A stretch of DNA of 64,000 nt from Comamonas testosteroni. GTDB taxonomy: Bacteria; Pseudomonadota; Gammaproteobacteria; Burkholderiales; Burkholderiaceae_C. The notes below the pieces were generated by a model. The model ran no database searches. It saw only the letters and a program-made list of their open reading frames with translations, and had not been told where the DNA came from. Each line of letters opens with the position of its first letter. Position 1 is the first letter of the stretch. Position numbers and translations under genes: made by a program. The DNA is taken from the NCBI RefSeq assembly GCF_014076415.1, contig NZ_CP043568.1, positions 4,712,001 through 4,776,000 of the forward strand. Reading direction: 5' to 3'. Below are positions 7,096 to 59,714 of the stretch, one piece after another.

Positions 7096-7171
7096 GCATG
7101 TCTCCTGAATCTCTTTATGGAATGGGCTTTATTTTTACGACGACAATGTTTTCTAACAATCCCATGAATCA

Positions 7172-7186
7172 TTGACAGACTGTCAA
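7172..7186. promoter_or_regulatory. Perfect dyad in the fad/LysR divergent promoter
   Basis: TTGACAG-A-CTGTCAA is a perfect 7-bp inverted repeat with one central base. It lies 22 bp before the LysR start and 77 bp before the FadB-type start. The size and place suit an autoregulatory LysR operator, and each arm also resembles a -35 box. The binding protein is inferred from position. Confidence 0.5.
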
Positions 7187-7207
7187 AGAAAATTAGACAA
7201 ATACACC

Positions 7208-8125: not shown

Positions 8126-8179
8126 GCGGCAACGCAAGACGCCAGCGACCAAGCTGGCGTTTTCATTCGGACAGCGCTC

Positions 8180-13787: not shown

Positions 13788-13789
13788 TC

Positions 13790-16084
13790 ATGAAATTCTT
13801 CACCAAAGACAATCACGCTCAACTGACCCGTCGCCAGCTGCTCAAGGCCGGCGGCATGCTGATGGTCGGCTCCGTGGCAGGCGGCCATCTGCTGATGGCC
13901 CAGACCGCCCCCGAAGCGGCTGCCAAGGGCGCTTTCCCCATTCCCTCGGCCAAGCTGGTGGACAGCTTCATCGCGATTGGCGCCGACGGCTCCGTCACGG
14001 CCTACAACGGCCACGTGGACCTGGGCACGGGCGTGCGCACGGCTCTCGGCCAGTTGGTGGCCGACGAGCTGTATGTGGACTTTGCCGCCGTGACCATGGT
14101 GCTGGGACACACCGCCCGCACCCCGGACCTGGGCCCCACCATTGCCAGCAACACCATCCAGGTATCGTCCCTGCCCATGCGTCATGCCGCAGCGCAGGTG
14201 CGCCAGCTGCTGATCAAGCTGGCCAGCGAAAAATCCGGTGTTCCCGCCGAGCGCATCACCACCCAGAAAGGCTTTGTCATCGCCGGCGGCAAGCGCTACG
14301 GCTATGGCGAGCTGGTTCAGGGCCAGGATCTGCAGATCGAGGTCGACGACAAGATCGAGCTGCGCAAGTCCGGCTTCGAGTACATCGGCAAATCGGTGCA
14401 GCGCGTGGACATCCCCAACAAGGTTCTGGGCGCGCTGACCTATATCCATGACCTGCGCGTGCCCGGCATGCTGCACGGCCGCGTGATCCGTCCTCCCTAC
14501 ACCGGCGCCGATGCCACGGCGCCCCTGGGCTCCAGCCTGGTGTCGGTGGACGAGAAGTCCATCGCCCATCTGCCCGGCATCGTCAAGGTCGTGGTCAAGG
14601 GCGACTTCGTGGGCGTGGTGGCCGAGCGTGAAGAGCAGGCCATCGCTGCCATGCGCCAGCTCAAGGTCACCTGGAAGGAATGGAACGGTCTGCCCGATAT
14701 GTCGCTGAGCGGCCTGCATCAGACCCTGGTGGACCACGCCAAGACAGACCGCGTGCTGCAGGAAGACGAAGGCGCGCTGCAGGCGATCGAGCAGGTCAAG
14801 ACTGCACTGACCCGCGACTATGTCTGGCCCTATCACGCTCACGGCTCCATCGGCCCGTCCTGCGCGATTGCCGAAGTGGGCGACGGACAGATCCAGGTCT
14901 GGACCGGCTCGCAAAACCCCCACGACGTGTGCAAGGACATTGCCAAGCTCATGGACGTGAATGCCGACAACATCAACGTCACCCGCCTCGAAGCCTCCGG
15001 CTGCTACGGCCGCAACTGCGCGGACGACGTCTGCTCGGATGCGGTGCTGATGTCTGCCGCCGTGGGCAAGCCCGTGCGCGTGCAGCTGATGCGCGAGCAG
15101 GAAGCCGGCTGGGAGCCCAAGGGCACGGGCCAGCTGATTCGCGTGCGCGGCGGCCTGGACGAGCAAAACAATGTGGCCGCCTATGAGCTGCGTACCTGCT
15201 ACCCCTCGAACAACGCCTCGGCGCTGGCTCTGATCCTCACGGGCAAGGTGTCTGCCAAGACCGAAGCCCAGCAAATGGGCGACCGCACTGCCATTCCGCA
15301 GTACGAGTATCCCAAGATGCGCGTGATCTCCCAGGACGCCGTGCCCATCGTGCGCGCCTCGTGGATGCGCGGCGTCTCCGCCCTGCCCAATGTGTTCGCC
15401 CATGAGTCCTGGATCGACGAATGCGCTTACCTGGCCAAGGCCGACCCCATCGAGTACCGCCTGCGCTATCTCAAGGACCCCCGTGCCGTGGCGCTGATTG
15501 CCGAGGCCAAGAAGCAGTGCAACTGGCAGGAAGGCCCGGCACGCCGCAATGCGGCAGCTGACGATCAGCGCCTGGTCAAGGGTCGCGGCTTTGCCTATGC
15601 CCGCTACTTCCACAGCAAGTTCCCCGGCTACGGTGCGGCCTGGGCAACCTGGGTGGTCGACGTGACCGTGGACCGCGAAACCGGGGAAGTCAAGGTCGAC
15701 AAGGTCTTTGTCGCCCAGGACACCGGCGCCATGGTCAACCCCGCAGGCGTGCGTCATCAGGTGCACGGCAACGTGGTGCAGTCCACCAGCCGCGTGCTCA
15801 AGGAGTTCGTCACCTTCGACAAGAGCGGCGTCACCTCCGTGGAATGGGGCGGCTACCCCATCCTGCGCTTTGACGAGCTGCCCGAGATCGACTCGCTGCT
15901 GGTCGAGCGTCCCAACGAGGCACCCATGGGCGCCGGCGAATCGGCCTCCGTGCCCAGCGCCGCCGCCGTGGCCAACGCCATCTTCGACGCCACCGGCGTG
16001 CGCCTGCTGGAAGTGCCGTTCACGCCCAGCCGCGTGCTGGCCGCGCTCAAGGCTGCCAAGAGCAGCGCCGCCTCGTCCAAGTGA
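13790..16084 (+). CDS. Molybdenum hydroxylase large subunit (isoquinoline 1-oxidoreductase beta type), Tat-exported
   Basis: A 764-residue molybdopterin-binding subunit. The N-terminus is a twin-arginine leader (LTRRQLLKAGGMLMVGS) near residue 12, so the folded enzyme is probably exported with its small subunit. The catalytic Glu lies in PMGAGESASVPS near residue 717. Substrate is hydroxylated with water-derived oxygen and electrons leave through the 2Fe-2S subunit to cytochrome c. The gene is tightly packed between the small-subunit gene and the cytochrome gene. There is no FAD subunit in the operon, as in IorAB and the nicotinate dehydrogenases that use cytochrome. Confidence 0.92.
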   Translation: MKFFTKDNHAQLTRRQLLKAGGMLMVGSVAGGHLLMAQTAPEAAAKGAFPIPSAKLVDSFIAIGADGSVTAYNGHVDLGTGVRTALGQLVADELYVDFAAVTMVLGHTARTPDLGPTIASNTIQVSSLPMRHAAAQVRQLLIKLASEKSGVPAERITTQKGFVIAGGKRYGYGELVQGQDLQIEVDDKIELRKSGFEYIGKSVQRVDIPNKVLGALTYIHDLRVPGMLHGRVIRPPYTGADATAPLGSSLVSVDEKSIAHLPGIVKVVVKGDFVGVVAEREEQAIAAMRQLKVTWKEWNGLPDMSLSGLHQTLVDHAKTDRVLQEDEGALQAIEQVKTALTRDYVWPYHAHGSIGPSCAIAEVGDGQIQVWTGSQNPHDVCKDIAKLMDVNADNINVTRLEASGCYGRNCADDVCSDAVLMSAAVGKPVRVQLMREQEAGWEPKGTGQLIRVRGGLDEQNNVAAYELRTCYPSNNASALALILTGKVSAKTEAQQMGDRTAIPQYEYPKMRVISQDAVPIVRASWMRGVSALPNVFAHESWIDECAYLAKADPIEYRLRYLKDPRAVALIAEAKKQCNWQEGPARRNAAADDQRLVKGRGFAYARYFHSKFPGYGAAWATWVVDVTVDRETGEVKVDKVFVAQDTGAMVNPAGVRHQVHGNVVQSTSRVLKEFVTFDKSGVTSVEWGGYPILRFDELPEIDSLLVERPNEAPMGAGESASVPSAAAVANAIFDATGVRLLEVPFTPSRVLAALKAAKSSAASSK

Positions 16085-42234: not shown

Positions 42235-42510
42235 TAAGCCTCAAATTATATACATATTCTGGGGCTTGCAGAAAAGTCTCCCAGGATTTTCAAGTTCCGG
42301 ACGCCGCTGCGCGCGTGCAACCACATGAAAAGCCTGATTCCAAGCACATGCATATGCGCTAATCTCGAACGCTGAAACCGGTCCGCCAGCAAGCTGCTGG
42401 CGGCCTCTGCGATGCCTCGGTCATGGACCCCAAGGAACCAGACCCCGCGCGTCAGGGCAGCCGGTCGCTCCAGGCCACCACGGGCTGCGGCAGTGCATTC
42501 AGAACCATCA

Positions 42511-44034
42511 ATGACGACAGACAGAAAACAGGCCTCGCCTTCGATTCCTCCATCCGTGGCCATGTGGGAGCAGTTGTTTCGCCGCAGCGCCAGGCCCTCG
42601 CTGAGCCTGCAGGGCCAGATTCGCGAAATGCTGGTCGATGCCATCCTCACCGGCATTCTCGCGCCCGGTGATGCCATCCCCTCAAGTCGAGAGCTGGCCA
42701 AGCTGCTGGGCGTGGGCCGCATCACCGTGGTCATGGCCTACCAGCAGTTGACCGAAGAGGCCTTTTTGCTGAGCCGCGAGAGAAAAGGCCATTTCATCCA
42801 CCCCGATGTGCTGCAGGGCCGCACCGCAGAGCGCAACCCCGGCAATGTCAGGAATGCGGACGCCGAGGTGCACACGGACTGGTCTCGCCGCCTGTGGCTG
42901 CGCCCCAGCCTGCAGCGCAGCATCGTCAAGGAAGACGACTGGCAGCAGTTCCCCTATCCGTTTCTCTACGGCCAGTTCGACAAGGAGCTGTTTCCCACGG
43001 CCGCCTGGCGCGAATGCTGCCTCAAGTCCCTGGGCGTGGTGGACATCCGCATGTGGGCACCCGATCACATCACCCGCGACGACGACAGCCTCATCCAGCA
43101 GGTCCAGACCAAGATCCTGCCGCGCCGCGGCGTCTGGGCCTCACCCGACGAAATCATCATCACCGTCGGAGCCCAGCATGCGCTGTACATGGTGGCCGAT
43201 TTGCTGATGCGCGAGGGCACCTCCATCGGCATCGAAAACCCCTGCTACCCCGATGCGCGCAATATCTTCAGCAGCCGTACCTCTCAGGTCATCCCCATTG
43301 GCGTGGATGGCGATGGGCTGCCTATCGTCAATGCCATGCGCAAGCTCGAGTACCTCTACGTCACGCCCAGCCATCAGTGTCCCACCGGCGTCACCATGCC
43401 GCTGGAGCGGCGCGAAGCCTTGCTCGAGGCCGCACAGAAGCACGATCTCATCATCATCGAGGACGACTACGAAAGCGAAAGCAGCTTCGACGAACAACCC
43501 ATCCCGGCACTCAAAAGCCTGGACCGCAACAACCGCGTAATCTATATCGGCAGTCTCTCCAAGAGTCTGGCACCCGGCCTTCGCGTGGGCTATATCGTGG
43601 CCCCGCCCGAGCTGATCAAGGAGCTGCGTGCCCTGCGCCGTCTGATGATCCGCCATCCGTCCACCTTCATCCAGCGCACATTGGCCATGTTCATCTCGCT
43701 GGGCCACTACGAAGCCCAGTTGCGCCGCCTCGGTCAGGCCCAGAAAGAGCGTCATGCCGAGCTGACGGCAGCCATGGCTCGCTACCTGCCCCAATGCCGC
43801 ATCACGCCGGTACGCGGCGGCGGCTCGTGCTGGGTGCAACTGCCCGACCATGTGCCCGCGCAGGCACTGGCTCGCCAGGCCGCCGAGCACGGAGTGCTGA
43901 TCGAGCCCGGCGATGTGTTCTTCACTTCCACTAGCAACACGGGCAACTTCATTCGCCTGGGCTACCAGTCCATTCCTGCGGGACAAATCGCCCAGGGCAT
44001 CAAGGCCCTGGCAGAAGCCATGCACTGCATGTAG
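42511..44034 (+). CDS. tauR: MocR-family regulator (GntR helix-turn-helix plus aminotransferase-like domain), TauR-like
   Basis: A 507-residue MocR protein. The N-terminal winged helix (LSLQGQIREMLVDAILTGI to about residue 95) is fused to a class I aminotransferase-like PLP domain; the PLP lysine is in IGSLSKSLAPGLRVGYI near residue 350. TauR, the taurine activator, belongs to this family. The link to taurine is inferred from the locus (tauABC, xsc, pta) and from CTGGAC-type direct repeats at 47544-47576 and 49941-49973, which resemble described TauR sites. The start at 42511 (MTTDRKQASP) is chosen. An insertion sequence follows 15 bp after the stop. Confidence 0.82.
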   Translation: MTTDRKQASPSIPPSVAMWEQLFRRSARPSLSLQGQIREMLVDAILTGILAPGDAIPSSRELAKLLGVGRITVVMAYQQLTEEAFLLSRERKGHFIHPDVLQGRTAERNPGNVRNADAEVHTDWSRRLWLRPSLQRSIVKEDDWQQFPYPFLYGQFDKELFPTAAWRECCLKSLGVVDIRMWAPDHITRDDDSLIQQVQTKILPRRGVWASPDEIIITVGAQHALYMVADLLMREGTSIGIENPCYPDARNIFSSRTSQVIPIGVDGDGLPIVNAMRKLEYLYVTPSHQCPTGVTMPLERREALLEAAQKHDLIIIEDDYESESSFDEQPIPALKSLDRNNRVIYIGSLSKSLAPGLRVGYIVAPPELIKELRALRRLMIRHPSTFIQRTLAMFISLGHYEAQLRRLGQAQKERHAELTAAMARYLPQCRITPVRGGGSCWVQLPDHVPAQALARQAAEHGVLIEPGDVFFTSTSNTGNFIRLGYQSIPAGQIAQGIKALAEAMHCM

Positions 44035-44049: not shown

Positions 44050-45356
44050 GGTTCATCGAGGAATTCCGTGGAGATGAGCCCGTTCGTTTTGTAATCTGAC
44101 GACAGCGAAGCTGACATCGGAGAACAAATCAAATGCTGGACTCGAAGTTATTGCAGGCTCTTGGCGGCTGGGAGGGCTACGAGGTTGAACGTGTGCAGTG
44201 GCCCCAGGGCGATAGCCGCACCGTGTCGATCTATCTGAAGCCGCAGGCCAGCGTCATGCATTGCGAACGCTGCGGTGCGCAGTGCAGCCAAGTCCATGAG
44301 ACCACGACACGGCGCGTGCGCGATCTGGCATTGTTCGAGTACAAGGTGGTGCTGCATGTGCCGCGTCGGCGTCTGTGGTGCGATAGCTGTGGTGGCCCGC
44401 GCCTGGAGAAACTCAGCTGGCTCGGTCGCTACCAGCGCGTCACAGACCGTCTGGCACAGGCGTGCAGCCAGTTGCTTCGCAGCAGCAGCATCAAGGCAGT
44501 CGCGGCCTTCTTCGATCTTGGGTGGCACACGGTCAAGTCCATCGACAAGACCTTATTGCTGGCCACTACCGCGCAGCCGCAATGGGAGCGGATCGAGTAC
44601 TTGGCAATGGACGAGTTTGCGTTGCACAAGGGCCATCGCTACGCCACAGTCGTCATCGACCCCATCAGCCGGCAGGTGCTGTGGGTGGGGCAAGGGCGCT
44701 CACGCGAGACGGCCCGCCAGTTCTTCGAGCAGTTGCCCGTTGGCGTTGCCCAGCGCATTCGCGCGGTTGCTATCGACATGACTACTGCCTACGAGCTGGA
44801 GATCCAGGCCAACTGCCCCAACGCCGAGATCGTCTATGACCTGTTCCATGTCGTGGCCAAGTATGGCCGGGAGGTTATCGACCGAGTGCGTGTCGATCAG
44901 GCCAACTTGCTGCGCCAACAGCCCTTGGCGCGCAAGGTGCTCAAGTCCAGCCGCTGGTTGCTACTGCGCAATCGCAACAAGCTGCAGGCTCAACAAGCAG
45001 TGCAGCTCAAGGAGCTGCTGGCGGCCAATGAGCCATTAATGGCGGTATACGTCTTGCGCGATGAGCTAAAACAGCTGTGGTTTTACCGTCGTCCGGCTTG
45101 GGCGCATCGCGCCTGGCAGCACTGGTGTGAGCAAGCGCGCCAAAGCGGTATTACAGCACTGAGCACCTTTGCTCAGCGCTTGCAAAGCTACCTGCACGGG
45201 ATCATCGCCCGATGCCGGCATCCGTTGAACACAAGTGTTGTCGAGGGCATCAACAACACCATCAAGGTCATCAAGCGCCGGGCCTATGGCTACCGCGATC
45301 AGGACTATTTCTTTCTGAAGATTCGCGCAGCCTTCCCCGGTAATGCGCGATGAACC
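44050..45356 (+). mobile_element. ISL3-family insertion sequence, complete (1307 bp)
   Basis: The ends are GGTTCATCGAGGAATTCCG on the left and, inverted, GGTTCATCGCGCATTACCG on the right; they match at about 18 of the first 23 bases. An 8-bp direct repeat AAACAAAA flanks the element. The single transposase frame is intact and its stop codon lies in the right inverted repeat. Insertion took place at the T-tract side of the terminator of the permease gene and left that terminator usable. The intact ends and target duplication suggest recent movement. Confidence 0.92.
44133..45353 (+). CDS. ISL3-family transposase
   Basis: A 406-residue transposase. The N-terminus has a zinc-ribbon (CERCGAQCSQV and CDSCGGPR), followed by a helix-turn-helix and the DDE_Tnp_ISL3 catalytic region, with VAIDMTTAYELEI, YDLFHVVAKYG and the C-terminal VVEGINNTIKVIKRRAYGYRD containing the last acidic residue. 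Length and motifs are normal, so it is probably active. It is the only gene in the insertion sequence. Confidence 0.95.
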   Translation: MLDSKLLQALGGWEGYEVERVQWPQGDSRTVSIYLKPQASVMHCERCGAQCSQVHETTTRRVRDLALFEYKVVLHVPRRRLWCDSCGGPRLEKLSWLGRYQRVTDRLAQACSQLLRSSSIKAVAAFFDLGWHTVKSIDKTLLLATTAQPQWERIEYLAMDEFALHKGHRYATVVIDPISRQVLWVGQGRSRETARQFFEQLPVGVAQRIRAVAIDMTTAYELEIQANCPNAEIVYDLFHVVAKYGREVIDRVRVDQANLLRQQPLARKVLKSSRWLLLRNRNKLQAQQAVQLKELLAANEPLMAVYVLRDELKQLWFYRRPAWAHRAWQHWCEQARQSGITALSTFAQRLQSYLHGIIARCRHPLNTSVVEGINNTIKVIKRRAYGYRDQDYFFLKIRAAFPGNAR

Positions 45357-48167: not shown

Positions 48168-49589
48168 ATGAAAGCCGAGGACATCCGCCCCAGCCATCTG
48201 AATCCATACGACCCGCAGTACGACCCCCTGGTTGCAAGAAACCCCGGACATGGCGCCGGCTACGCTCCGACCTACTGGGTAGGGACGGCAGGCCGGCCAC
48301 CCGAGGACGATGGTCCGGTCTGCGGCGACATGGAGGCCGATGTGGTCATCGTGGGCTCGGGCTTCACGGGCCTGTCCACGGCCCTGTTCCTGGCCCGCGA
48401 ACACGGCATTCGCGCCGTGGTTCTCGAAGCCAACCAGAGCGCCTGGGGCTGCACCAGCCGCAACGGCGGCCAGGGCCAGAATGCCAGCGGCCGCCTCTAT
48501 CGCTCGCAGTGGATAGAGCGCTGGGGCAAGGACACAGCCCTGAAACTTGATGCGGAAATCCGCGAAGGATTCGACACGTTCAAAAAACTGGTTGCGGAGT
48601 TTCCAGAATGCGAGCCGCAGCCGGGAGGGCATTTGTATATTGCCCACCGCGACAGAAAAATGGATTTTCTGCGCAACGAGACCCGCGTCATGCGCGAAGT
48701 CTTCGGCTACGACGCCCGCATACTCAGCGTCGACGCAGTGCGCCGCGACTATGTCGACGACGCCGACTGCCGTGGCGCGATGCATGAGCCCGACGGCATT
48801 GGCGTGCATCCGCTCAAGCTGGCATTCGGCTATCTGCGCAAGGCCCGCGAGCTGGGAGTGAAGGTGCATCCCGCCAGTCCCGTGCTGGGCATGGAGACAC
48901 GCAACGGCGTGCATTACCTCCAGACACCGGGCGGCACGGTCAAGGCACGCGCCGTCGGCTTTGCCACCGGCGGCTATACCAGCAACGGCCTGCACCCCAG
49001 CCTGCGCTCCAAAATCATGCCGATTCTCTCGAACTCGCTGGTCACCAGGCCCTTGACGCAAGAAGAGCTGGCCGCCACCAATTTCAAGACCACGCAGGTC
49101 ATCACCGACACCCGTACCCTGCGCTTTTACTACCGCAAGCTGCCCGACAACCGCGTGCAGATCGGCAGCCGCAGCTCGATCACCGGAGCCGATGCGCCCA
49201 ATCCGGTCCATATGGCCAAGCTGGTCGAGGGCCTGCACCACAAGTTCCCGGCCCTCAAGGGAATCCAGGTGGACTACTCCTGGTGGGGCTGGGTCGATGT
49301 AAGCCACGACATGATGCCGCGCATCACCCAGCCCGATCCAAGGGAAAGCGTCTTCTATGCGGTCGGCTATGGCGGCAACGGCGTGTCGTTCTCTGCGCAT
49401 GCAGGCCGTCGCATGGCCCAGCGCATCGCAGGTCAGAACCTCAAGGCCTTCGAGTTGCCAATCTACAACTCATCGCTCGAATATCCGAATGTGTTCAATA
49501 TGGTGCGCTCGGAGGCGTTTGCACCATTTCGCCGCATGGGCCAGCGCTTTCTCTACCACTGGTATCACATGAACGACGAGAAGAGCTGA
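48168..49589 (+). CDS. FAD-dependent oxidoreductase of the DAO family, candidate taurine dehydrogenase large subunit (TauY)
   Basis: A 473-residue flavoprotein. The FAD-binding beta-alpha-beta motif is ADVVIVGSGFTGLSTALFLA near residue 57, then SRNGGQGQNASGR, and the C-terminal flavin loop is VGYGGNGVSFSAHAGRRMAQ. AGGAGA lies 8 bases before the ATG. The family oxidises amines and amino acids. Between a SnoaL gene and tauABC, and with xsc and pta nearby, oxidative deamination of taurine to sulfoacetaldehyde is the best fit. A gamma-glutamylputrescine- or glycine-type oxidase is the alternative. Confidence 0.8.
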   Translation: MKAEDIRPSHLNPYDPQYDPLVARNPGHGAGYAPTYWVGTAGRPPEDDGPVCGDMEADVVIVGSGFTGLSTALFLAREHGIRAVVLEANQSAWGCTSRNGGQGQNASGRLYRSQWIERWGKDTALKLDAEIREGFDTFKKLVAEFPECEPQPGGHLYIAHRDRKMDFLRNETRVMREVFGYDARILSVDAVRRDYVDDADCRGAMHEPDGIGVHPLKLAFGYLRKARELGVKVHPASPVLGMETRNGVHYLQTPGGTVKARAVGFATGGYTSNGLHPSLRSKIMPILSNSLVTRPLTQEELAATNFKTTQVITDTRTLRFYYRKLPDNRVQIGSRSSITGADAPNPVHMAKLVEGLHHKFPALKGIQVDYSWWGWVDVSHDMMPRITQPDPRESVFYAVGYGGNGVSFSAHAGRRMAQRIAGQNLKAFELPIYNSSLEYPNVFNMVRSEAFAPFRRMGQRFLYHWYHMNDEKS

Positions 49590-49973: not shown

Positions 49974-50152
49974 TGGCTTCACAAGGTTGCTCACTACGAT
50001 CCGCTGAGAAAGCTCTTTGAGCCTCGCGATGCGGCTTTCAACCGGTTCAGCCAGAAGCGGGAATGGGAAAACAGTCAGCAAGAGTGAGCACAGCAAGGGT
50101 TCTCTGGTCTAAGTCTTCAACCGATATCGCTCTAACCATGGAGAAATTGGCA

Positions 50153-51160
50153 ATGAAAATGCAAAAACGATGGATGCTGAAAGCGGGTGTTGCGACGGCG
50201 GCACTGGCCATGACAGGCTTCGCGCTGGCGCAGCAGAAAACCGTGACCTTCGCCAACCAGGACATGCTGGTGCCTCTGCGCCTGGTCATGGAATCGGGTG
50301 AAGTGGAAAAGGAGACGGGCTACAAGATCAACTGGCGCATGTTCTCGGGCGGCGGCGACGTGATACGGGCGATGGCCTCGGGCGACGTGCAGATGGGAGA
50401 GGTGGGCTCCAGCCCGCTGACCGCAGCGGCCAGCCAGGGGCAGGACATCAAGCTGCTCTGGATCTCTGCAGACATCGCCAGTGCCGAAGCCCTGGTGGCA
50501 CGCGATGGCGGCGGCATCAGCAGTTTCAAGAGCATGGAGGGCAAGCGCATAGGCGTGCCGTTCGTCTCCACCGCGCACTACCAGCTGGTCGCTGCCCTGG
50601 GCAAGGAAGGCGTTGACGCACGCAAGGTCAACATCATGAACATGCGCCCGCCAGAGATTGCCGCAGCCTGGGAGCGCGGCGATATCGACGGCACCTTTGT
50701 CTGGGATCCGGTACTGGCCAAGGTCAAGCAAAAGGGCAAGGTGATTGCCACCTCCGGCTCCATTGCGCAGATGGGCTATCCCACCTTCGAGGGCATTGCC
50801 GTGAGCAGCAAGTTCGCCCAGGAAAACCCCCAGTTCATGGTGGCGTTCATCAAGGCCCTGAATCGGGCCAGCGCCCAGGTGCGCGACAACCTGGCCACGT
50901 GGACTCCCGATTCGCCCGAGATCAAGGCCATTGCCAAATGGAGCAAGGCCGACCCCAAGGACGTGCCCGCAGCCATGGCGCTTTACCGCTTCCCCAGCGC
51001 TGAAGAGCAGCTCGGCGTGCAGTGGCTGGAAGGCGGTGCGGCCAAGGCCATGACCAATACCGCAACGTTTCTGAAGTCACAAGGTCGGATTCAGGAGGTC
51101 AAGCCCGACTACGCTGCGTACGTGACCAGCAGCTATGTCAAGCAGGCAATCGGCCGCTGA
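50153..51160 (+). CDS. tauA: Taurine ABC transporter, periplasmic binding protein
   Basis: A 335-residue solute-binding protein with a signal peptide (MLKAGVATAALAMTGFALA, cleavage after ALA near residue 26). The NMT1/TauA-type fold is clear: VTFANQDMLVPLRLVMESGEVEKE, then GDVQMGEVGSSPLTAAASQG and VPFVSTAHYQLV. These loops match TauA proteins that bind the sulfonate. Start 50153 is preferred because GGAG lies 9 bases upstream; ATGs at 50138 and 50159 are in frame. It is the first gene of tauABC. Taurine is inferred from xsc and pta in the same locus. Confidence 0.88.
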   Translation: MKMQKRWMLKAGVATAALAMTGFALAQQKTVTFANQDMLVPLRLVMESGEVEKETGYKINWRMFSGGGDVIRAMASGDVQMGEVGSSPLTAAASQGQDIKLLWISADIASAEALVARDGGGISSFKSMEGKRIGVPFVSTAHYQLVAALGKEGVDARKVNIMNMRPPEIAAAWERGDIDGTFVWDPVLAKVKQKGKVIATSGSIAQMGYPTFEGIAVSSKFAQENPQFMVAFIKALNRASAQVRDNLATWTPDSPEIKAIAKWSKADPKDVPAAMALYRFPSAEEQLGVQWLEGGAAKAMTNTATFLKSQGRIQEVKPDYAAYVTSSYVKQAIGR

Positions 51161-51226: not shown

Positions 51227-52015
51227 ATGCCGACTCTGGATATACGTGACCTGACCGTCAATTACGAGGTCAAGGGCGGACACTTGCAAGCCCTGGCGCC
51301 CGTCAACCTGACCATGAACGAAGGCGACTTCGTGGTCGCTCTGGGTGCATCGGGCTGCGGCAAGACAACACTGCTCAACTGCATGGCTGGCTTTCTGGCA
51401 CCGTCCAGCGGCCAGATCCTGCTGGACGGCAAACCCATTCAGGGCCCCGGAGCCAATCAAGGGGTGGTGTTTCAGAAGCATGCGCTGATGCCATGGCTCA
51501 ATGTGATCGACAACGTCGCACTGGGATTGCGCATGCGCGGCATGGATCTGAAGGCGCGCACACAGATCGCCGAAGAGAAGCTGGCCGTCGTGGGCTTGCA
51601 GAGCTACGCCAGGCGTGCCGTCTATGAACTGTCTGGAGGCATGCAGCAGCGTGTCGGCATTGCCCGTGCGCTGGCCAACGATCCCGCACTGCTGCTGATG
51701 GACGAGCCCATGGGTGCACTGGATGCCTTCACGCGCGAGCAGGTTCAGGAAATCCTGCTGCGCGTATGGCATGCCACCCACAAGATGGTGTTCTTCATCA
51801 CCCACTCGGTGGAAGAGGCGCTGTTTCTCGCCAGCCGGCTGATCGTCATGAGCCCCAGCCCGGGCCGCATCTCCCATGTCTACGACGACATGCCCTTCTG
51901 CCATGAGTTTCTGCGCACCGGCGATGCGCGTGCCGTCAAGTCGCGCCCCGACTTCATCAGGATGCGCGAAGAAGTTCTGAGTCTGATTCACCACCGGGAG
52001 CCTGCCAATGTCTGA
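51227..52015 (+). CDS. tauB: Taurine ABC transporter, ATP-binding protein
   Basis: A 262-residue ATPase subunit. Walker A is [11 protein letters not shown] near residue 43, the signature is [15 protein letters not shown] and Walker B is [12 protein letters not shown]; the H-loop is [13 protein letters not shown]. The last 8 bp overlap tauC. The sequence is of the nitrate/sulfonate/taurine class. AGGAGGG is 9 bases before the ATG, a strong ribosome binding site. Confidence 0.92.
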
Positions 52016-52889
52016 AGCAGTCCAAATCAACCATCTGCCCACCGCGACAGCGCGCGTGCAGCCCAAGGCCACTGCCCCGCAGGCGTCAGGACCGGTGAAG
52101 ACCAGTCGCTTCAAGACCCCTGGTGAAGGCTCCAGCCTCTCTATCAGCATCGTCACCGTGGCCGTGCTGCTGGCACTGTGGTTCGCCGCCACCAATCTCG
52201 GCTGGATCAAGCCCTTGTTCCTGCCCAGCCCGCAGGCGGTGTTCCAGCAGTTCTATGAGTACCTGACCGGGCAGGCCAACGACAAACCGCTGTGGCAGCA
52301 CTTCTCGGCAAGTCTGCTGCGCGTGACCGTGGCGTTCTGGCTGGCCTTCCTGATTGCGGTTCCGCTGGGCATTGCGATGGGGATGTCACGCATCGCACGC
52401 GGCATCTTCGACCCACCCATCGAGTTCTACCGCCCTCTGCCGCCACTGGCCTATCTGCCGCTGATCATCATCTGGTTCGGCATCGATGAAACGCCGAAGA
52501 TTCTGCTGATCTTCCTGAGCTGCTTTGCGCCCTTGGCCCTGGCGGCCCGCTCGGGCATGCGCAGCGCAGCACAGGAGCAGATCAATGCCGCCTATTCGAT
52601 GGGTGCGAGCTACTTCCAGGTGATCCGCCATGTGATCTTGCCGGCGGCCCTGCCCGACATTCTGGTGGGCATGCGCATTGCCATCGGCTTTGGCTGGACA
52701 ACTCTGGTTGCCGCCGAAATGGTGGCAGCGAACGTGGGTCTGGGTCAGATGGTGCTCAACGCCTCGAACTTCCTGCGCACCGACATCGTGATCATGGGCA
52801 TCATCGTCATCGGTGTGATCGCCTATGTCTTCGACCTGTTCATGCGCTGGGTCGAAAAGCGCCTGGTTCCATGGAAGGGGCGCATGTAA
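52008..52889 (+). CDS. tauC: Taurine ABC transporter, permease
   Basis: A 293-residue inner-membrane permease with about six helices and the BPD_transp_1 EAA-type loop ([32 protein letters not shown]) near residues 195-225 (read in two parts). It overlaps tauB by 8 bp, so the two are coupled. The N-terminal 40 residues are polar and cytosolic. The gene is convergent with cobT, 163 bp away. Confidence 0.9.
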
Positions 52890-53052: not shown

Positions 53053-54753
53053 TCATCGCCGGCACAGCATCTCGGCCACCGAAAACAGCAAGGCCTCGTC
53101 GACATCGTGCTGCAGATCGACAGCAAGCCTTTGACGGTAGAAGACCCCCAGATCCAGCCCGACGCCCAGGGCGCAGACCTTCACGCCGCCCATGCGCTCC
53201 TGGGCGGCAAGAACCTGCCGCAGATGCTGATCCAGATAATGCTCGTCATTGGCCTGATGGGTCGCCGTGTCCATGGGACAGCCATCGGAGACCACCAGCA
53301 GGATGCGACGCTGCGCGGTCTGGGCGCGCAGTCTCTGGCACGCCCATTCCACGGCCTCGCCGTCTATGCCCTCTCGAAAGATGTCGGGCTTGCGCAGTGC
53401 CGCAATGCCATGCCGGGCGTGACGCCAGGGCCTGGCCCCGTCCTTGAAGACAATGTGCAGGCGCTCGTTGAGACGCCCCGGAAACTGGGGCTGGCCCGCG
53501 CGCTGCCAAAGGCGGCGCGTTCTGCCGCCATTCCAGGCGTGGGTGGAAAAACCCAGTATCTCCACGCTCGCACCGGCCATCTCCAGCGCCCGCCCCAGCA
53601 CGTCGAGCAACAGCGACAGGGGCCTGGCAAAGGTTTTCATGGAGCCCGAGCAGTCCATGAGAATGGTGACTGCGGTCTCGTTGACGGGGCGCTGCATCTC
53701 GTCCTTGAAAATCGCACGCTGCTGCGGGTCCGTTACCAACAGGGACAGGCGGCTGCCGTCCAGATGGCCTTCCTCCAGTCCGAAGTTCCAGCCATTGCGC
53801 TGCGTGCTGGCCAGGCGCTGCTGCAGATAGCGCGCCAGCCTCCCGGCCTGCTGCAATCCCGAGCGCGCCAGCTCCTCGTCCATCTGCTCCCGGAACTGGG
53901 CCAGCTGCAACGCGCGGATCAACTCAGCGGCCTGCACTTCCCTATCGAACTCGCGCGTGAAAACCCGGTAGCTTTGCGCGGTGCCGGCCCAGGCCCGGCT
54001 GTCGCCGCTTTGCGCCACGGGCATGCCGTCCTGACTCTGGGACTCAAAGTGCAGAGGCAGGGCAAAGCTGCTGCGCCGCCTGGGGCCACCGGCACCGCGC
54101 GGCGCATCGTCCTGCGCCGCACGCACCGCCATTCCAACCCAGCGGCTGACGGCCAGGGCAGGCTCGACAAACTGCTGCTGCCGGTCTCTGAAGCGCCGCA
54201 GCCCATCCCAGTGCCGGCCCAGCGGGGAAGCCAGGGACATCCGCGTGGACTCCACCAGATCGGCCATGCGCTCAGGTATCTCATGCCCGGTCAGCCGGCT
54301 CCAGGCCGTGATGGCCACCGCAAACAGCAAGATGCCCAGGCTGCTTTCCGTGAGGCCGGAATCCATGAAGGCCTGGCACCAGTTCACAAAGCGCTGGCGC
54401 ATGTTCTCGCGCGCTCCGGGCCAGGCCTCGGGCACCAGGCTCTCCACACGCAATTGCTCGAGCAGCTCGAACACCATGCGCTCCACCGGGTCCTGGGGCA
54501 GATGCGACTGGAACAGGGCCTGGTCGCTCCACTGCAGACGCAGTCCCATGCTGTCGAGCAGGCCGCGCTGATCCGTCTGCTGCACCGGCACCTGGCTATG
54601 GTGGGCCGCCGCCTGGGGTATGGGCGTGGTGCCGCGATACAGCGTCTGACCGCTCCATTGCAGGCCGGCGTCGCCCGTGATGGCGCGCAGCATGGCTCCG
54701 CCCCAGGCCTCCATGCGGGACAGAGACAAGGAGGTGGGCGTCTGCGTGCTCAT
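53053..54753 (-). CDS. cobT: CobT-type cobaltochelatase subunit (VWA domain), orphan
   Basis: A 566-residue protein. The C-terminal VWA domain has the MIDAS motif in ILMDCSGSMKTF near residue 355, then VEILGFSTHAWNGGRT, GEAVEWACQRL and ILLVVSDGCPMD, matching CobT of the aerobic cobaltochelatase closely. The N-terminal region (about 1-300) is CobT-like but lacks the long acidic stretch of alpha-proteobacterial CobT. The start overlaps the cobS stop by 4 bp. No CobN subunit and no cobalamin genes are in the window. The pair may instead serve another metalloenzyme. Confidence 0.85.
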   Translation of the reverse strand: MSTQTPTSLSLSRMEAWGGAMLRAITGDAGLQWSGQTLYRGTTPIPQAAAHHSQVPVQQTDQRGLLDSMGLRLQWSDQALFQSHLPQDPVERMVFELLEQLRVESLVPEAWPGARENMRQRFVNWCQAFMDSGLTESSLGILLFAVAITAWSRLTGHEIPERMADLVESTRMSLASPLGRHWDGLRRFRDRQQQFVEPALAVSRWVGMAVRAAQDDAPRGAGGPRRRSSFALPLHFESQSQDGMPVAQSGDSRAWAGTAQSYRVFTREFDREVQAAELIRALQLAQFREQMDEELARSGLQQAGRLARYLQQRLASTQRNGWNFGLEEGHLDGSRLSLLVTDPQQRAIFKDEMQRPVNETAVTILMDCSGSMKTFARPLSLLLDVLGRALEMAGASVEILGFSTHAWNGGRTRRLWQRAGQPQFPGRLNERLHIVFKDGARPWRHARHGIAALRKPDIFREGIDGEAVEWACQRLRAQTAQRRILLVVSDGCPMDTATHQANDEHYLDQHLRQVLAAQERMGGVKVCALGVGLDLGVFYRQRLAVDLQHDVDEALLFSVAEMLCRR

Positions 54754-55733
54754 GCAAGAAACGCCAGCGCTGGTTCTTCGGGCTGCGTCAGCTCCTGGGC
54801 AAAGCAGCGCTGGAAATACTCGCTCACGATGGCGCGCTCGGCAGGCTCGCATTTGTTGAGGAAGGACAGCTCGAAGGCCAGCTTCAGGTCATGGAAGATG
54901 GAAATGTTCTCAGCCCAGGTGATCACCGTACGCGGAGACATCAGCAAGGACAGATCCCCCACGGCAAAGCCCTTGCGCGTCAGCCCGGCCAGCGCCACCA
55001 TGGCGTCCACCTTGCGGCGCCCGTCGGCAGTGGCCAGCTGCGGCACGCGCGCCAGCACGATGGCCGCTTCCTCCTGCGGGGGAAGATAGTTCAGGCTGGT
55101 GACAAGATTCCAGCGATCGAGCTGGGCATGGTTGAGCTGCTGGGTACCGTGATAGAGCCCGTTGAGATTGCCCTGCCCCAGGGTGTTCATGGTGGCAAAC
55201 AGCCGAAAGCAGGGATGCGGCTGGATCACCCGCTTCTGATCGAGCAAGGTAAAGCTGCCTTCACGCTCCAGAACCCGCTGGATGACGAACATCACATCGG
55301 GGCGTCCGGCGTCGTACTCGTCAAACACCATGGCCACGGGCCGCTGCAGCGCCCAGGGCAGGATGCCCTCCTGAAACTGGGTCACCTGCTTGCCATCCTG
55401 CAGCACGATGCTGTCCTTGCCCACCAGATCCAGGCGGCTGATATGGCCGTCCAGATTCACGCGCATGCAGGGCCAGTTCAACCTCGCCGCCACCTGCTCT
55501 ATATGCGTGGATTTGCCCGTGCCGTGCAGGCCCTGAACGACCACGCGCCGGTTGTGCGCAAAGCCCGCCAGAATGGCTTGCGTCACCCGCGGATTCAGCC
55601 GGTAGGCCTTGTCAATGGCGGGAACATGTTCGCCCGGCTCGGCAAAAGCCGGCACGGTCATGTCCGTGTCGATGCCAAATACATCGCGCACGCTGACGGT
55701 GCGGGTGGGCTGCAGCTGGCTCAGGTCAGTCAT
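54750..55733 (-). CDS. cobS: CobS-type cobaltochelatase AAA+ ATPase, orphan
   Basis: A 327-residue AAA+ ATPase of the MoxR/CobS group. Walker A is VVQGLHGTGKSTHIEQVA near residue 75, Walker B is VAMVFDEYDAGRPDVMFVI, and RLNWPCMRVNLDGHISRLDL plus YHGTQQLNHAQLDRWN are CobS hallmarks. Its start (55733, or 55736 in ATGATG) lies inside the end of iclR and its stop overlaps cobT, so iclR-cobS-cobT is one translationally coupled operon. CobST normally drives cobalt insertion by CobN; here CobN is absent from the window, so the client is unknown. Confidence 0.88.
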   Translation of the reverse strand: MTDLSQLQPTRTVSVRDVFGIDTDMTVPAFAEPGEHVPAIDKAYRLNPRVTQAILAGFAHNRRVVVQGLHGTGKSTHIEQVAARLNWPCMRVNLDGHISRLDLVGKDSIVLQDGKQVTQFQEGILPWALQRPVAMVFDEYDAGRPDVMFVIQRVLEREGSFTLLDQKRVIQPHPCFRLFATMNTLGQGNLNGLYHGTQQLNHAQLDRWNLVTSLNYLPPQEEAAIVLARVPQLATADGRRKVDAMVALAGLTRKGFAVGDLSLLMSPRTVITWAENISIFHDLKLAFELSFLNKCEPAERAIVSEYFQRCFAQELTQPEEPALAFLA

Positions 55734-56550
55734 CATCGGCTTCCGGTGGAACGTCATCGTTAATGCGGGCGATCGCCTCGACGGCCGCCTGCAGCTTGGG
55801 AAGAAAGGACAGGGCCTTCTCCTTGGAAAAACGCATGATGGGGGCCTGCACGGCAAGCCCCATATTAGAGTTGCCCAGGGGCGCGGGCACCAGCACGCCA
55901 AGGCACAGCAGACCGGGCAGGAACTCCTCGTTGTCGAAGGCATAGCCCTGCGCCCGCACCTGATCGAGCTCCTGCTCCAGCGCCTCGAAGGTCGTCAACG
56001 TATTGCCGGTAAACGCTTCCAGCGGCACATTGGCCAGCAGCCGGCGGCGCTGGGCGGGCGACATCTGGCTCAGGAACAGCTTGCCCGTGGCCGAACAGTG
56101 TGCAGGCACGCGCGAGCCCGGATGCAGATAAAAGCGCAGCGGCGCAGGCGTCTCCACACGGTCCAGATACAGGACCTCGCTGCCCGAAAAAGCCGTGATG
56201 TTGCAGCTCTCTCCGAGCTCGCGCACCAGCTGGGTCAGCACCGCATGCCTTGCACCATGCGTGGTGTTGTTGAGCAACACGTTCTCCGCCAGTCGCATCA
56301 GCCGCTGGCCCGTGCCGTAGTGGCGACCGTTGCCATCTCTTTGCAGGATTCCGGCGCTTTCCAGCTGCGCAAGCATGCGGTGCATGGTCGGCTTGGGCAG
56401 CCCTGTCTCTTCCACCATGGTCTGCAGGGTGAAGGGCTGGCTCTTCTGCGCCACGGCTTCCAGCAGCGCGAACAAACGCAGATTGGGCGTGTCTCCGTCC
56501 AGGCGAGCCGAGGGGGTGTCTTCGCTGTGCTTCATATCGTTGTCGATCAT
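55726..56550 (-). CDS. IclR-family transcriptional regulator
   Basis: A 274-residue IclR regulator. The N-terminal winged helix (LRLFALLEAVAQKSQPFTLQ, then EETGLPKPTMHRMLAQLESA) spans about residues 24-65, followed by the IclR effector domain (SRVPAHCSATGKLFLS, RAQGYAFDNEEFLPGLLCLG). The start at 56550 is chosen over 56535. It is divergent from xsc over 134 bp and its own operon continues into cobS and cobT. It probably senses a carboxylic or sulfonic acid intermediate and controls both directions. Confidence 0.9.
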   Translation of the reverse strand: MIDNDMKHSEDTPSARLDGDTPNLRLFALLEAVAQKSQPFTLQTMVEETGLPKPTMHRMLAQLESAGILQRDGNGRHYGTGQRLMRLAENVLLNNTTHGARHAVLTQLVRELGESCNITAFSGSEVLYLDRVETPAPLRFYLHPGSRVPAHCSATGKLFLSQMSPAQRRRLLANVPLEAFTGNTLTTFEALEQELDQVRAQGYAFDNEEFLPGLLCLGVLVPAPLGNSNMGLAVQAPIMRFSKEKALSFLPKLQAAVEAIARINDDVPPEADDD

Positions 56551-56598
56551 ATTAATTTCCACTTTTCGAGTCAATTTATTCCATAAAAAGAAATTTAT

Positions 56599-56627
56599 TT
56601 GCACGAAAACAAAAAAATGCCATAGAC
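56599..56627 (+). promoter_or_regulatory. Candidate xsc promoter
   Basis: TTGCAC, 17 bp, ATAGAC, in an AT-rich divergent region. It would start transcription about 50 bp before the xsc ATG. Confidence 0.4.
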
Positions 56628-56684: not shown

Positions 56685-58496
56685 ATGGCTGCAACGGACA
56701 ATCGTAAAGTGGTTGAAGGCGTTCACAAGATGACCCCTTCGGAAGCATTCGTGGAAACCTGCGTCGCCAATGGCGTCAGCGAGATGTTCGGCATCATGGG
56801 TTCCGCCTTCATGGATGCCATGGACATCTTCGCCCCCGCAGGCATTCGCCTGATCCCGGTGGTGCATGAACAAGGTGCGGCCCATATGGCCGACGGCTAT
56901 GCCCGCGTCTCGGGCCGCCACGGCGTGGTGATTGGCCAGAACGGCCCCGGCATCAGCAACTGCGTGACCGGGATTGCCGCAGCCTACTGGGCGCACAGCC
57001 CGGTGGTGATCGTGACCCCCGAGACCGGCACCATGGGCATGGGCCTGGGCGGCTTCCAGGAGGCCAATCAGCTGCCCATGTTCCAGGAGTTCACCAAGTA
57101 CCAGGGCCATGTCTGCAACCCCAAGCGCATGGCCGAGTTCACGGGCCGCGTCTTCGACCGCGCCATGTCCGAGATGGGCCCGACCCAGCTCAATATTCCG
57201 CGTGACTACTTCTACGGCGAGATCGAGTGCGAGATTCCCAAGCCCATGCGCGTGGACCGCGGCCATGGAGGCGAAGCCAGCCTGCAAGCCGCCGTGGATC
57301 TGCTCAAGACCGCCAAGTTCCCGGTGATCCTGGCCGGCGGTGGCGTGGTCATGGGCGATGCGGTGGAAGAAGCCAGGCAGCTGGCCGAGCGCCTGGGCGC
57401 ACCCGTGGCCACCGGCTATCTGCGCAACGACGCCTTCCCTGCCAAGCACCCGCTGTGGGCCGGCCCTCTGGGCTACCAGGGCTCCAAGGCCGCCATGAAG
57501 CTGATCGCCCAGGCCGACGTGGTGATTGCGCTGGGCTCGCGCATGGGTCCCTTCGGCACCCTGCCCCAGCACGGCATGGACTACTGGCCCAAGACCGCCA
57601 AGATCATCCAGATCGAGGCCGATCACACCAATCTGGGCCTGGTCAAGAAGATCGCCGTGGGTATCAACGGCGATGCCAAGGCCGTAGCGGCCGAGCTGAG
57701 CAGGCGTCTGGCCGATGTGACGCTGGGCTGTGACGCCACCAAGGCTGCGCGCGCCGACACCATCGCCACGGAAAAGGCCGCCTGGGAGAAGGAGCTCGAC
57801 GGCTGGACCCACGAGCGCGACCCCTACAGCCTGGACATGATCGAAGAGGCCAAGGGCGAACGCACGCCGACCGGCGGCAGCTATCTGCATCCCCGCCAGG
57901 TGCTGCGAGAACTCGAAAAAGCCATGCCGGCGCGCGTCATGGTGTCCACCGACATCGGCAATATCAATTCGGTGGCCAACAGCTATCTGCGCTTCGACGA
58001 GCCGCGCAGCTTCTTCGCTCCCATGAGCTTCGGCAACTGCGGCTATGCCCTGCCCACCATCATCGGTGCCAAGTGTGCAGCCCCCGATCGCCCGGCCATT
58101 GCCTATGCAGGTGACGGTGCCTGGGGCATGAGCATGATGGAAATCATGACCGCCGTGCGCCACGACATCCCCGTGACCGCCGTGGTGTTCCACAACCGCC
58201 AGTGGGGCGCGGAAAAGAAGAACCAGGTGGACTTCTACAACCGCCGCTTCGTGGCCGGCGAGCTGGAGAGCGAAAGCTTCTCCGACATCGCCAAGGCCAT
58301 GGGTGCCGAAGGCATCGTGGTGGACCATATCGAGGACGTGGGCCCGGCACTGCAAAAGGCCATCGACATGCAGATGAAGGAAGGCAAGACCTGCGTGATC
58401 GAGATCATGTGCACACGCGAGCTCGGCGACCCCTTCCGCCGCGACGCCTTGTCCAAGCCCGTGCGCATGCTGGACAAGTACAAAGACTTTGTCTGA
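56685..58496 (+). CDS. xsc: Sulfoacetaldehyde acetyltransferase
   Basis: A 603-residue thiamine-diphosphate enzyme that converts sulfoacetaldehyde and phosphate to acetyl phosphate and sulfite. The Xsc N-terminus (MTPSEAFVETCVANGVSEMFG, from residue 16, read in two parts) includes the early PYR-domain motif, and the ThDP glutamate is in VVHEQGAAHMADGYARV. The ThDP-motif GDGAWGMSMMEIMTAVRH (about 468-485) and the HNRQWGAEKKNQ segment are typical of Xsc rather than acetolactate synthase. AAGGAGA lies 8 bases before the ATG. It is the diagnostic enzyme of taurine and other C2 sulfonate dissimilation. Confidence 0.95.
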   Translation: MAATDNRKVVEGVHKMTPSEAFVETCVANGVSEMFGIMGSAFMDAMDIFAPAGIRLIPVVHEQGAAHMADGYARVSGRHGVVIGQNGPGISNCVTGIAAAYWAHSPVVIVTPETGTMGMGLGGFQEANQLPMFQEFTKYQGHVCNPKRMAEFTGRVFDRAMSEMGPTQLNIPRDYFYGEIECEIPKPMRVDRGHGGEASLQAAVDLLKTAKFPVILAGGGVVMGDAVEEARQLAERLGAPVATGYLRNDAFPAKHPLWAGPLGYQGSKAAMKLIAQADVVIALGSRMGPFGTLPQHGMDYWPKTAKIIQIEADHTNLGLVKKIAVGINGDAKAVAAELSRRLADVTLGCDATKAARADTIATEKAAWEKELDGWTHERDPYSLDMIEEAKGERTPTGGSYLHPRQVLRELEKAMPARVMVSTDIGNINSVANSYLRFDEPRSFFAPMSFGNCGYALPTIIGAKCAAPDRPAIAYAGDGAWGMSMMEIMTAVRHDIPVTAVVFHNRQWGAEKKNQVDFYNRRFVAGELESESFSDIAKAMGAEGIVVDHIEDVGPALQKAIDMQMKEGKTCVIEIMCTRELGDPFRRDALSKPVRMLDKYKDFV

Positions 58497-58748: not shown

Positions 58749-59714
58749 ATGACTCCCCCACTCTCACATGCCGTGGCCGCCGACGATGCACCCGCCACGC
58801 CGCGTCCCCATCTCCAGCAATTGATCGACCAGGCCCGGGCCCGCGGCCCGATTCCCGTGGCCGTGGCCTACCCCTGCGATGCAGGCTCTGTGCAGGCAGC
58901 CATGCAGGCAGCGGAGGCCGGCCTGATCAAGCCCCTGCTGGTAGGGCCGCAGCAGCGCATCGAGGCTGCGGCTCGCTCTGCCGGTCTGGATCTGTCTGCC
59001 GCCGAGATCCACTCCACAGCGGACGACGCCCGCATCGCCGCGGCCCAGGCCGCAGCACTGTGCCGCGATGGCCAGGCCCGGGCCCTGATGAAGGGCAGCC
59101 TGCACAGCGACGATCTGCTGGGTGCGGCCGTGGCGCGTGAAGCCGGTCTGCGCGGCAGCCGCCGGGCCAGCCATGTCTTCATCATGGACGTCCCCGGCTA
59201 CGACCGCCCGCTGCTGATGACCGACTGCGTGGTCAACATCTTCCCCAGCCTGATGGAAAAGCGCGACATCGCCCAGAACGCAGTCGATCTGGCCCATGCC
59301 ATCGGCATAGTCCAGCCACGCGTGGCCCTGCTGTCGGCGGTGGAGACCGTCAACCCGGCCATTCCCGGCACCATCGATGCGGCAGCCCTGTGCAAGATGG
59401 CCGACCGCGGCCAGATCACAGGCGGCATATTTGACGGTCCGCTGGCTTACGACAACGCCATCTCCCTGCACTCGGCGCACAACAAGGGCATAGTCTCCGA
59501 TGTCGCCGGTCGCCCCGATATCTTGCTGGCCCCCAACCTGGAAGCCGGCAACATGATCTACAAGCAACTGGTCTACATGGCCAACGCCGAATGTGCGGGC
59601 CTGGTGCTGGGCATGCGCGTGCCCATCGTGCTGACCAGCCGCTCCGACTCGGTGGCCAGCCGCATCGCTTCCTGCGCCCTGGCCGTGCTGGCCAGCTCAG
59701 GGATGCAGCCATAG
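58749..59714 (+). CDS. pta: Phosphate acetyltransferase
   Basis: A 321-residue short-form phosphotransacetylase that converts acetyl phosphate to acetyl-CoA. The PTA_PTB fold is clear (GLIKPLLVGPQQRIEAAA, ALMKGSLHSDDLLGAAV, VFIMDVPGYDRPLLMTDCVV and GRPDILLAPNLEAGNMIYKQL, the last two as separate motifs). AGGAG lies 8 bases before the ATG at 58749. Being next to xsc, it completes the pathway from taurine to acetyl-CoA. The short form without the CobB/DRTGG extension is common in sulfonate clusters. Confidence 0.93.
   Translation: MTPPLSHAVAADDAPATPRPHLQQLIDQARARGPIPVAVAYPCDAGSVQAAMQAAEAGLIKPLLVGPQQRIEAAARSAGLDLSAAEIHSTADDARIAAAQAAALCRDGQARALMKGSLHSDDLLGAAVAREAGLRGSRRASHVFIMDVPGYDRPLLMTDCVVNIFPSLMEKRDIAQNAVDLAHAIGIVQPRVALLSAVETVNPAIPGTIDAAALCKMADRGQITGGIFDGPLAYDNAISLHSAHNKGIVSDVAGRPDILLAPNLEAGNMIYKQLVYMANAECAGLVLGMRVPIVLTSRSDSVASRIASCALAVLASSGMQP

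Follow-up and report, generated by a model that had tools for sequence, protein, structure and literature searches.

A CobS-CobT pair linked to one class of sulfoacetaldehyde acetyltransferase: a probable AAA+/VWA helper in Comamonas testosteroni and other bacteria

We analysed a stretch of 64,000 nucleotides of the Comamonas testosteroni genome (contig NZ_CP043568.1, positions 4,712,001 to 4,776,000; hereafter the window), in which the genes iclR, cobS and cobT stand within a taurine locus made of tauABC, a gene for a flavin adenine dinucleotide (FAD)-dependent oxidoreductase, xsc and pta. The host genome measures 5.95 Mb and has a completeness rating of 100%. Analysis of the open reading frames (ORFs) agreed with a preliminary description of this DNA: iclR, cobS and cobT form a single tight minus-strand operon, with overlaps of 11 nucleotides between iclR and cobS and of 4 nucleotides between cobS and cobT, while xsc is divergent from the operon and tauC is convergent with cobT. 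The product of xsc, sulfoacetaldehyde acetyltransferase, requires thiamine diphosphate (ThDP) and Mg. The cobST pair is real, conserved and associated with one class of Xsc, hereafter type A, across two phyla. Both genes are present in one copy and constitute the sole CobS/CobT pair found in the genome. Comparison with three relatives showed purifying selection, with ratios of nonsynonymous to synonymous substitutions (dN/dS) of 0.08-0.15 for cobS and 0.12-0.23 for cobT; the CobT protein and its counterpart in C. testosteroni ATCC 11996 share 95% identity.

The sequence motifs of the two proteins were compared with those of canonical CobST. In CobS, Walker A (residues 69-77), Walker B (137-143) and sensor 1 (at 180) are intact and are conserved on both the xsc-type and the canonical sides. 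CobT consists of an N-terminal helical domain, a short non-acidic linker (about 205-262) and a VWA domain (349-556) with an intact metal ion-dependent adhesion site (MIDAS; D367-S369-S371, T404, D490). Three features of a MoxR AAA+/VWA chaperone pair are found: intact Walker A, Walker B and sensor 1, an adjacent VWA partner with MIDAS, and conserved linkage to the supposed client gene, xsc. The absence of the usual acidic stretch from CobT, reported in the preliminary description, is borne out, since only 5 of the 58 linker residues are acidic, as compared to a median linker of 102 amino acids, 39% acidic, in canonical-side CobT (n=17). In the predicted model, confidence (predicted local distance difference test, pLDDT) is below 50 at linker residues 220-242. 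Between the xsc-type and canonical proteins, the AAA+ motor has a median identity of 63% whereas the CobT N-domains are 23% alike. The motor and the MIDAS are retained in the xsc-type pair, but the N-terminal domain and the acidic linker of canonical CobT are not.

Both proteins score below the NCBIfam equivalog cut-offs (CobS, 502.9 bits against 558.55 for TIGR01650; CobT, 301.5 bits against 759.05 for TIGR01651), and databases name such a CobT 'cobaltochelatase CobT-related'. Quick trees, whose canonical rows we assigned from context, put both proteins across one branch from canonical CobST, with support in the Shimodaira-Hasegawa-like approximate likelihood ratio test (SH-aLRT) of 99 for CobT and 89 for CobS. 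The best structural match of the CobT VWA model is NorD bound to NorQ; the structural matches span about residues 255-566 only, and solved CobT chains known by sequence are absent among the matches listed. Overall, by the sequence-based tests run, cobST is not a canonical cobaltochelatase pair.

The preliminary description had raised the question whether cobST neighbours xsc in other genomes. A scan that started from CobT yielded 56 loci and, once those of sampled genomes were added, a set of 70 loci of the xsc type. Some entries in this set are near-duplicates from a single genome (L082/L009, for instance), and in three loci the stretch contains no cobS; L056, L059-L061, L064, L065 and L102-L115 were excluded as canonical or other. 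Using the window proteins in tblastn, xsc was found near cobST in Comamonas, Delftia, Variovorax, Caballeronia, Burkholderia, Halomonadaceae, Vibrionaceae, Streptomyces, Mycolicibacterium and drafts. Type-A xsc is present in the stretch in 55 of the 70 loci, within 4 kb in 53 and within 1.5 kb in 47. It is divergent and upstream in 40 loci, downstream on the opposite strand in 10, and upstream of cobS on the same strand in 5, all of the latter being Gammaproteobacterial drafts. Of the 67 loci holding both cobS and cobT, 46 also encode an IclR more than 50% alike within the fetched stretch. The linkage is therefore strongly conserved. Some genomes in which xsc is distant from the pair, or sits on a different contig, retain the pair as well.

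Because the locus scan was seeded with CobT, extra genome samples were drawn independently of CobT. Among 397 Pseudomonadota, Xsc was found in 36 genomes, with 75-100% identity to the window Xsc in 9 and 44-48% in 27; full-length xsc-type CobT (E <1e-113) occurred in exactly those nine type-A genomes. Weaker CobT matches in 155 more genomes, the listed ones spanning about the C-terminal half, were taken as canonical or unrelated. Among 260 Burkholderiales, Xsc was present in 32, with an identity of 78-100% in 11 of them and of at most 72% in the other 21. CobT was detected at E 1e-30 in 10 of the 11 type-A genomes and also in G496 and G568, whose CobST pairs group with the canonical rows in the trees; G568 has no Xsc match. 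Of the 21 Burkholderiales whose Xsc all belong to other classes, 20 have no CobS and one, G496, has it. Finally, 266 genomes were taken from the class to which Streptomyces violens belongs, and the four with Xsc (76-82%) were also the four with CobT. By our own sums over the three samples (about 895 genomes, overlaps removed by genome handle, related genomes being non-independent), 19 of 20 type-A genomes (75-100%) carry xsc-type CobT, as against none of about 875 others, 48 of which have other Xsc classes. The E limits for CobT varied by sample (1e-10, 1e-30, 1e-20), and scoring was limited to the top 3 to 5 candidates in each genome.

Among plasmids, type-A Xsc (80-90%) was found on 10 of 155 records with Xsc, and 7 of these 10 carry xsc-type CobT; the seven remaining plasmid matches to CobT have either 32% identity or a coverage of half the query. 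In a tree of 80 Xsc sequences, type A forms one clade (SH-aLRT 95) of 58 rows, 57 of which come from genomes carrying the pair and one (G544) from a genome that does not.

We then considered cobalamin (B12) synthesis. The genome's only CobN lies 2.4 Mb from the xsc locus, inside an aerobic-type B12 cluster in which CobW, CobH, CobI, CobJ, CobK and CobM exceed their family cut-offs. CobG falls under its own (187 against 234.8 bits), and the supposed CobL gave no family match at the limit used; later B12 genes were outside this search. Immediately 3′ of cobN are genes for a ChlI-like AAA+ protein (374 bits with TIGR02442, under the cut-off) and then a small VWA protein, which presumably serve CobN here. 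The cluster has no cobST. In the window, tblastn with the genome's own proteins gave no match to CobN, CobW, the ChlI-like protein, the VWA protein or CobG-CobM at E 1e-5, in line with the earlier statement that cobalamin genes are absent there. The pair had been called an orphan, which holds insofar as it is the sole CobS/CobT and has no CobN in the window; CobN is however present elsewhere in the genome. The preliminary description had also held that its proposal would fall if CobN stood elsewhere without its own cobST and cobST had no conserved linkage to xsc. This combination fails because the linkage is strongly conserved.

A match to PF02514, the CobN family, is missing from 17 of 34 genomes carrying xsc-type CobT loci, some of them drafts; these 17 include C. 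testosteroni NFYY023, with a complete chromosome, and Cupriavidus pinatubonensis HN-2. As PF02514 also spans Mg-chelatase H, the other 17 may include some without true CobN. ChlI-like and VWA genes lie near the PF02514 match in 9 of 18 stretches from other carriers. The other nine gave no ChlI-like or VWA match with the queries used, some being cut by a contig end or having remote CobN-like proteins.

The features of the locus are listed in Table 1. The oxidoreductase is possibly the large subunit of a taurine dehydrogenase, and the SnoaL_2-family protein encoded close to it, a relative of which occurs in 24 of the 53 cobST loci examined after removal of near-duplicates, may be the small subunit. 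An ISL3-family transposase gene adjoins one for a GntR/aminotransferase (MocR-type) regulator. Between iclR and xsc lies a palindrome centred on AAATTT, which is found in Delftia (L012) too; such palindromes, seen in two genera, are a possible IclR operator. In Variovorax (L026) the iclR-xsc intergenic region contains a 20-nucleotide inverted repeat.

Table 1. Genes and other features of the taurine/xsc locus (positions in the window).
Feature	Position	Strand	Basis or remark
iclR, IclR-family regulator, first operon gene, divergent from xsc	55726..56550	-	Pfam HTH_IclR and IclR_C; NCBIfam
cobS (xsc-type), AAA+ ATPase, 328 amino acids	54750..55736	-	Pfam CobS_N PF12556 (60.8 bits) and AAA_5
cobT (xsc-type), adaptor, 566 amino acids	53053..54753	-	Pfam PF06213 (68.7 bits) and CobT_C PF11775 (146.1 bits)
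xsc (type A), sulfoacetaldehyde acetyltransferase, ThDP enzyme, proposed client	56685..58496	+	Pfam; TIGR03457
pta, phosphate acetyltransferase, uses acetyl phosphate from Xsc	58752..59714 (start uncertain, ORF from 58638)	+	ORF, Pfam, NCBIfam
tauA, taurine-binding protein of ATP-binding cassette (ABC) importer	50063..51160	+	TIGR01729, 350 bits (cut-off 304.25)
tauB, ABC ATPase	51227..52015	+	Pfam; top NCBIfam match taurine ATPase, under cut-off
tauC, ABC permease, convergent with cobT	52008..52889	+	Pfam; top NCBIfam match TauC, under cut-off
FAD-dependent oxidoreductase (DAO)	48168..49589	+	Pfam, NCBIfam
SnoaL_2-family protein, 132 amino acids	47029..47427	-	
ISL3-family transposase	44133..45353	+	
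GntR/aminotransferase (MocR-type) regulator	42412..44034		
AAATTT-centred palindrome	56587..56600		

The window Xsc passes TIGR03457 (1021 bits; cut-off 676.4), as do all four non-type-A Xsc tested (L073, L075, L080, L094). In an Xsc alignment that left out L022 and a 27% homologue, type-A-specific residues include M38, C93, Q134, E135, F136, N428, A475, H493, A524, M564 and C576, and a type-A-specific two-residue insertion at 392-393 is missing in the 12 rows of the 59-72% class. Two candidate recognition tags were rejected: some type-A Xsc (L020, L025) lack the N-terminal extension, which also occurs outside type A, and the C-terminal KYKDYV end occurs in L072 and L075, whose genomes are without CobS. 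The structure model of Xsc was poor (pLDDT 62.1) and was not used, so that the type-A residues could not be placed in three dimensions; the best PDB sequence match is BbmA (232 bits). Additional xsc copies were seen in a few genomes. Caballeronia terrestris (L036) has two near-identical type-A genes, 6950-8725 and 13538-15313, on either side of cobST. A draft labelled Bordetella parapertussis carries a second Xsc, 60% identical and not type A, beside its type-A locus (L037:11950-13650), and a second, partial type-A match is found on a separate contig at G026:C100:4888-5679.

Thiamine-thiazole genes adjoin cobST in 5 of the 70 loci, in two arrangements. In L018, L070 and L071, thiO-thiS-thiG is divergent from iclR-cobST with a gap of 56-145 bp, and L019 has the same order; these four cases may represent one ancestral arrangement. 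In L022, a Chromatiales draft, thiS-thiG lies 44 bp 3′ of cobT. In the three thiazole loci tested, ThiG always exceeded its Pfam cut-off, while ThiO (3/3) and ThiS (2/3) fell under the NCBIfam cut-offs. The pair of Paralcaligenes (L018) neighbours thiazole genes and not xsc, which is found on a separate contig. One Rhodococcus plasmid has thiS-thiG about 11 kb from type-A xsc. With the partial ThiG of L022 as query, no match was found in 22 Xsc loci without CobST or in the canonical loci; two other searches used Rhodococcus ThiG and covered loci other than the canonical ones. The thiazole adjacency is thus a lead for a ThDP link, not proof. On plasmid pDK3 (L140), CoA-ligase-like and aldehyde dehydrogenase genes accompany type-A xsc, a set that suggests a sulfoacetate-type route, and thiS and a thiazole synthase gene are present too. 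In Caballeronia, a gene for a CobW-like GTPase overlaps or lies near the 3′ end of cobT (L030:11663-12649, L035:12386-13306, L141:3237-4205).

The pair can be compared with four known systems. It shares with the CobNST aerobic cobaltochelatase its domain order, AAA+ motor and MIDAS motif, and its nearest solved sequences are the CobS and CobT of 9ujv and 9uka. It differs from it by the CobT N-domain, the short, little-acidic linker, the separation in the trees, the linkage to xsc and the carriers without CobN. ChlI/ChlD-type partners, present beside CobN in the host genome, also play AAA+ and VWA roles but belong to a different family. NorQ/NorD, involved in nitric oxide reductase maturation, is another AAA+/VWA pair, and the VWA model of CobT matches NorD best; however, it serves a haem/iron enzyme of the membrane, and NorQ is only a distant match to CobS (27.4 bits). 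PMC9976466 and PMC13036017 describe NorQD as inserting metal into its client, and PMC9976466 describes the Rubisco activase CbbQ/CbbO as an AAA+/VWA pair acting on a catalytic enzyme inhibited after catalysis. CbbQ/CbbO has another client, and CbbQ is only a distant match to CobS (36.7 bits).

As cobST travels with type-A Xsc across phyla, often in genomes without CobN, the pair is most likely an ATP-driven helper of Xsc. We consider it probable, though well short of certain, that CobST is a MoxR/VWA-type ATPase remodelling machine dedicated to type-A Xsc and not a cobalt chelatase. We infer Xsc as its physical client and, by analogy with NorQD and CbbQO, a ring mechanism. A ring of CobS would bear the VWA domain of CobT, and Xsc would be gripped by the MIDAS together with the diverged N-terminal domain of CobT; ATP hydrolysis would then tug Xsc open to allow the loading, exchange or release of ThDP-Mg or of a damaged or inhibited version of this cofactor. 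The gene set is presumably under the control of IclR. That ThDP is the thing handled is speculative and draws on thiO-thiS-thiG beside the pair in a few loci. The preliminary description had proposed a MoxR/VWA-type chaperone for a metalloenzyme or for an enzyme of the pathway; the conserved linkage to xsc supports the second option, and the first found no direct support. We know of no AAA+/VWA machine serving a ThDP enzyme. No link of CobST or MoxR/VWA proteins to Xsc was found among the titles and abstract openings listed, subscription papers being mostly outside the scope of this search.

Several observations weigh against a machine dedicated to Xsc. G544, a single-contig genome, has type-A xsc, pta and the oxidoreductase, yet neither CobS nor CobT. 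Three Rhodococcus plasmids with type-A xsc gave no CobT match, in plasmid records only, and the one inspected had no CobS. Therefore, cobST is not required everywhere. Other Xsc classes passing the TIGR03457 equivalog model also manage without it. Conversely, G006, G931 and G933 carry the pair and no Xsc was found in them; the last two are metagenome drafts, and G006 is a draft from an isolate, in which 319 bases separate cobS from the end of its contig. Thiazole genes adjoin 5 of 70 cobST loci and none of 22 Xsc loci without CobST, a difference that is not significant. Finally, in a mirror-tree comparison with near-duplicate loci dropped, Xsc distances correlated with those of CobS at 0.50, of CobT at 0.60 and of IclR at 0.75. 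As all pairs correlate, and Xsc-IclR the most, this test says nothing specific.

A more detailed version of the Xsc helper, in which type-A Xsc traps or damages ThDP during sulfonate cleavage, CobST opens the enzyme with ATP to swap the cofactor, and thiazole genes were recruited in some lineages, is tentative and on present evidence doubtful. Another protein of the sulfonate pathway could instead be the target: the FAD-dependent oxidoreductase, which shares many of the cobST loci, a transporter, phosphotransacetylase, or several of them. This is unlikely. A homologous oxidoreductase is also near Xsc without CobST (L062, L075, L097), the one-strand xsc-cobS-cobT loci L020, L021 and L025 show none in the available stretch, and the adjoining transporters and other genes, compared after near-duplicate loci had been removed, differ by locus, Xsc being the commonest partner found. 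The cassette-like spread, plasmids included, and distance correlations no higher for Xsc than for IclR would suit hitch-hiking, in which cobST moves laterally as part of a sulfonate cassette, has a role of its own, for example in regulation or stress, and does not act directly on any enzyme of the pathway. The purifying selection on cobS and cobT, the retention of the pair away from xsc and the tie to one Xsc class rather than to Xsc loci generally make this, too, improbable. Insertion of a non-cobalt metal into type-A Xsc, as NorQD puts iron into its client, is a slim possibility. Canonical CobST indeed serves a metal chelatase, CobW-like GTPase genes lie near cobST, and the type-A-specific C93, H493 and C576 leave a metal role open; however, these residues were not placed in a structure and hence not shown to form a site, the CobW-like genes are near few loci only, and Mg of ThDP enzymes as a rule loads unaided. 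That the two proteins, members of the CobS/CobT superfamily and the only such pair in a genome that does have a CobN, are canonical cobaltochelatase subunits for that distant CobN beside xsc by accident is very improbable, given the ChlI-like and VWA genes adjoining cobN here and in half of the other stretches, the carriers without a PF02514 match, the scores under the equivalog cut-offs and the position apart from canonical rows in the trees.

If CobST indeed serves type-A Xsc, a function would be assigned to a cross-phylum pair that is now liable to be tallied as B12 biosynthesis, and the prediction would follow that one class of Xsc may perform poorly when produced alone. Comamonas and Delftia would then offer a tractable model for the pair. 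The clients of AAA+/VWA machines, so far metalloenzymes and Rubisco, would come to include a sulfur-cycle enzyme that depends on ThDP.

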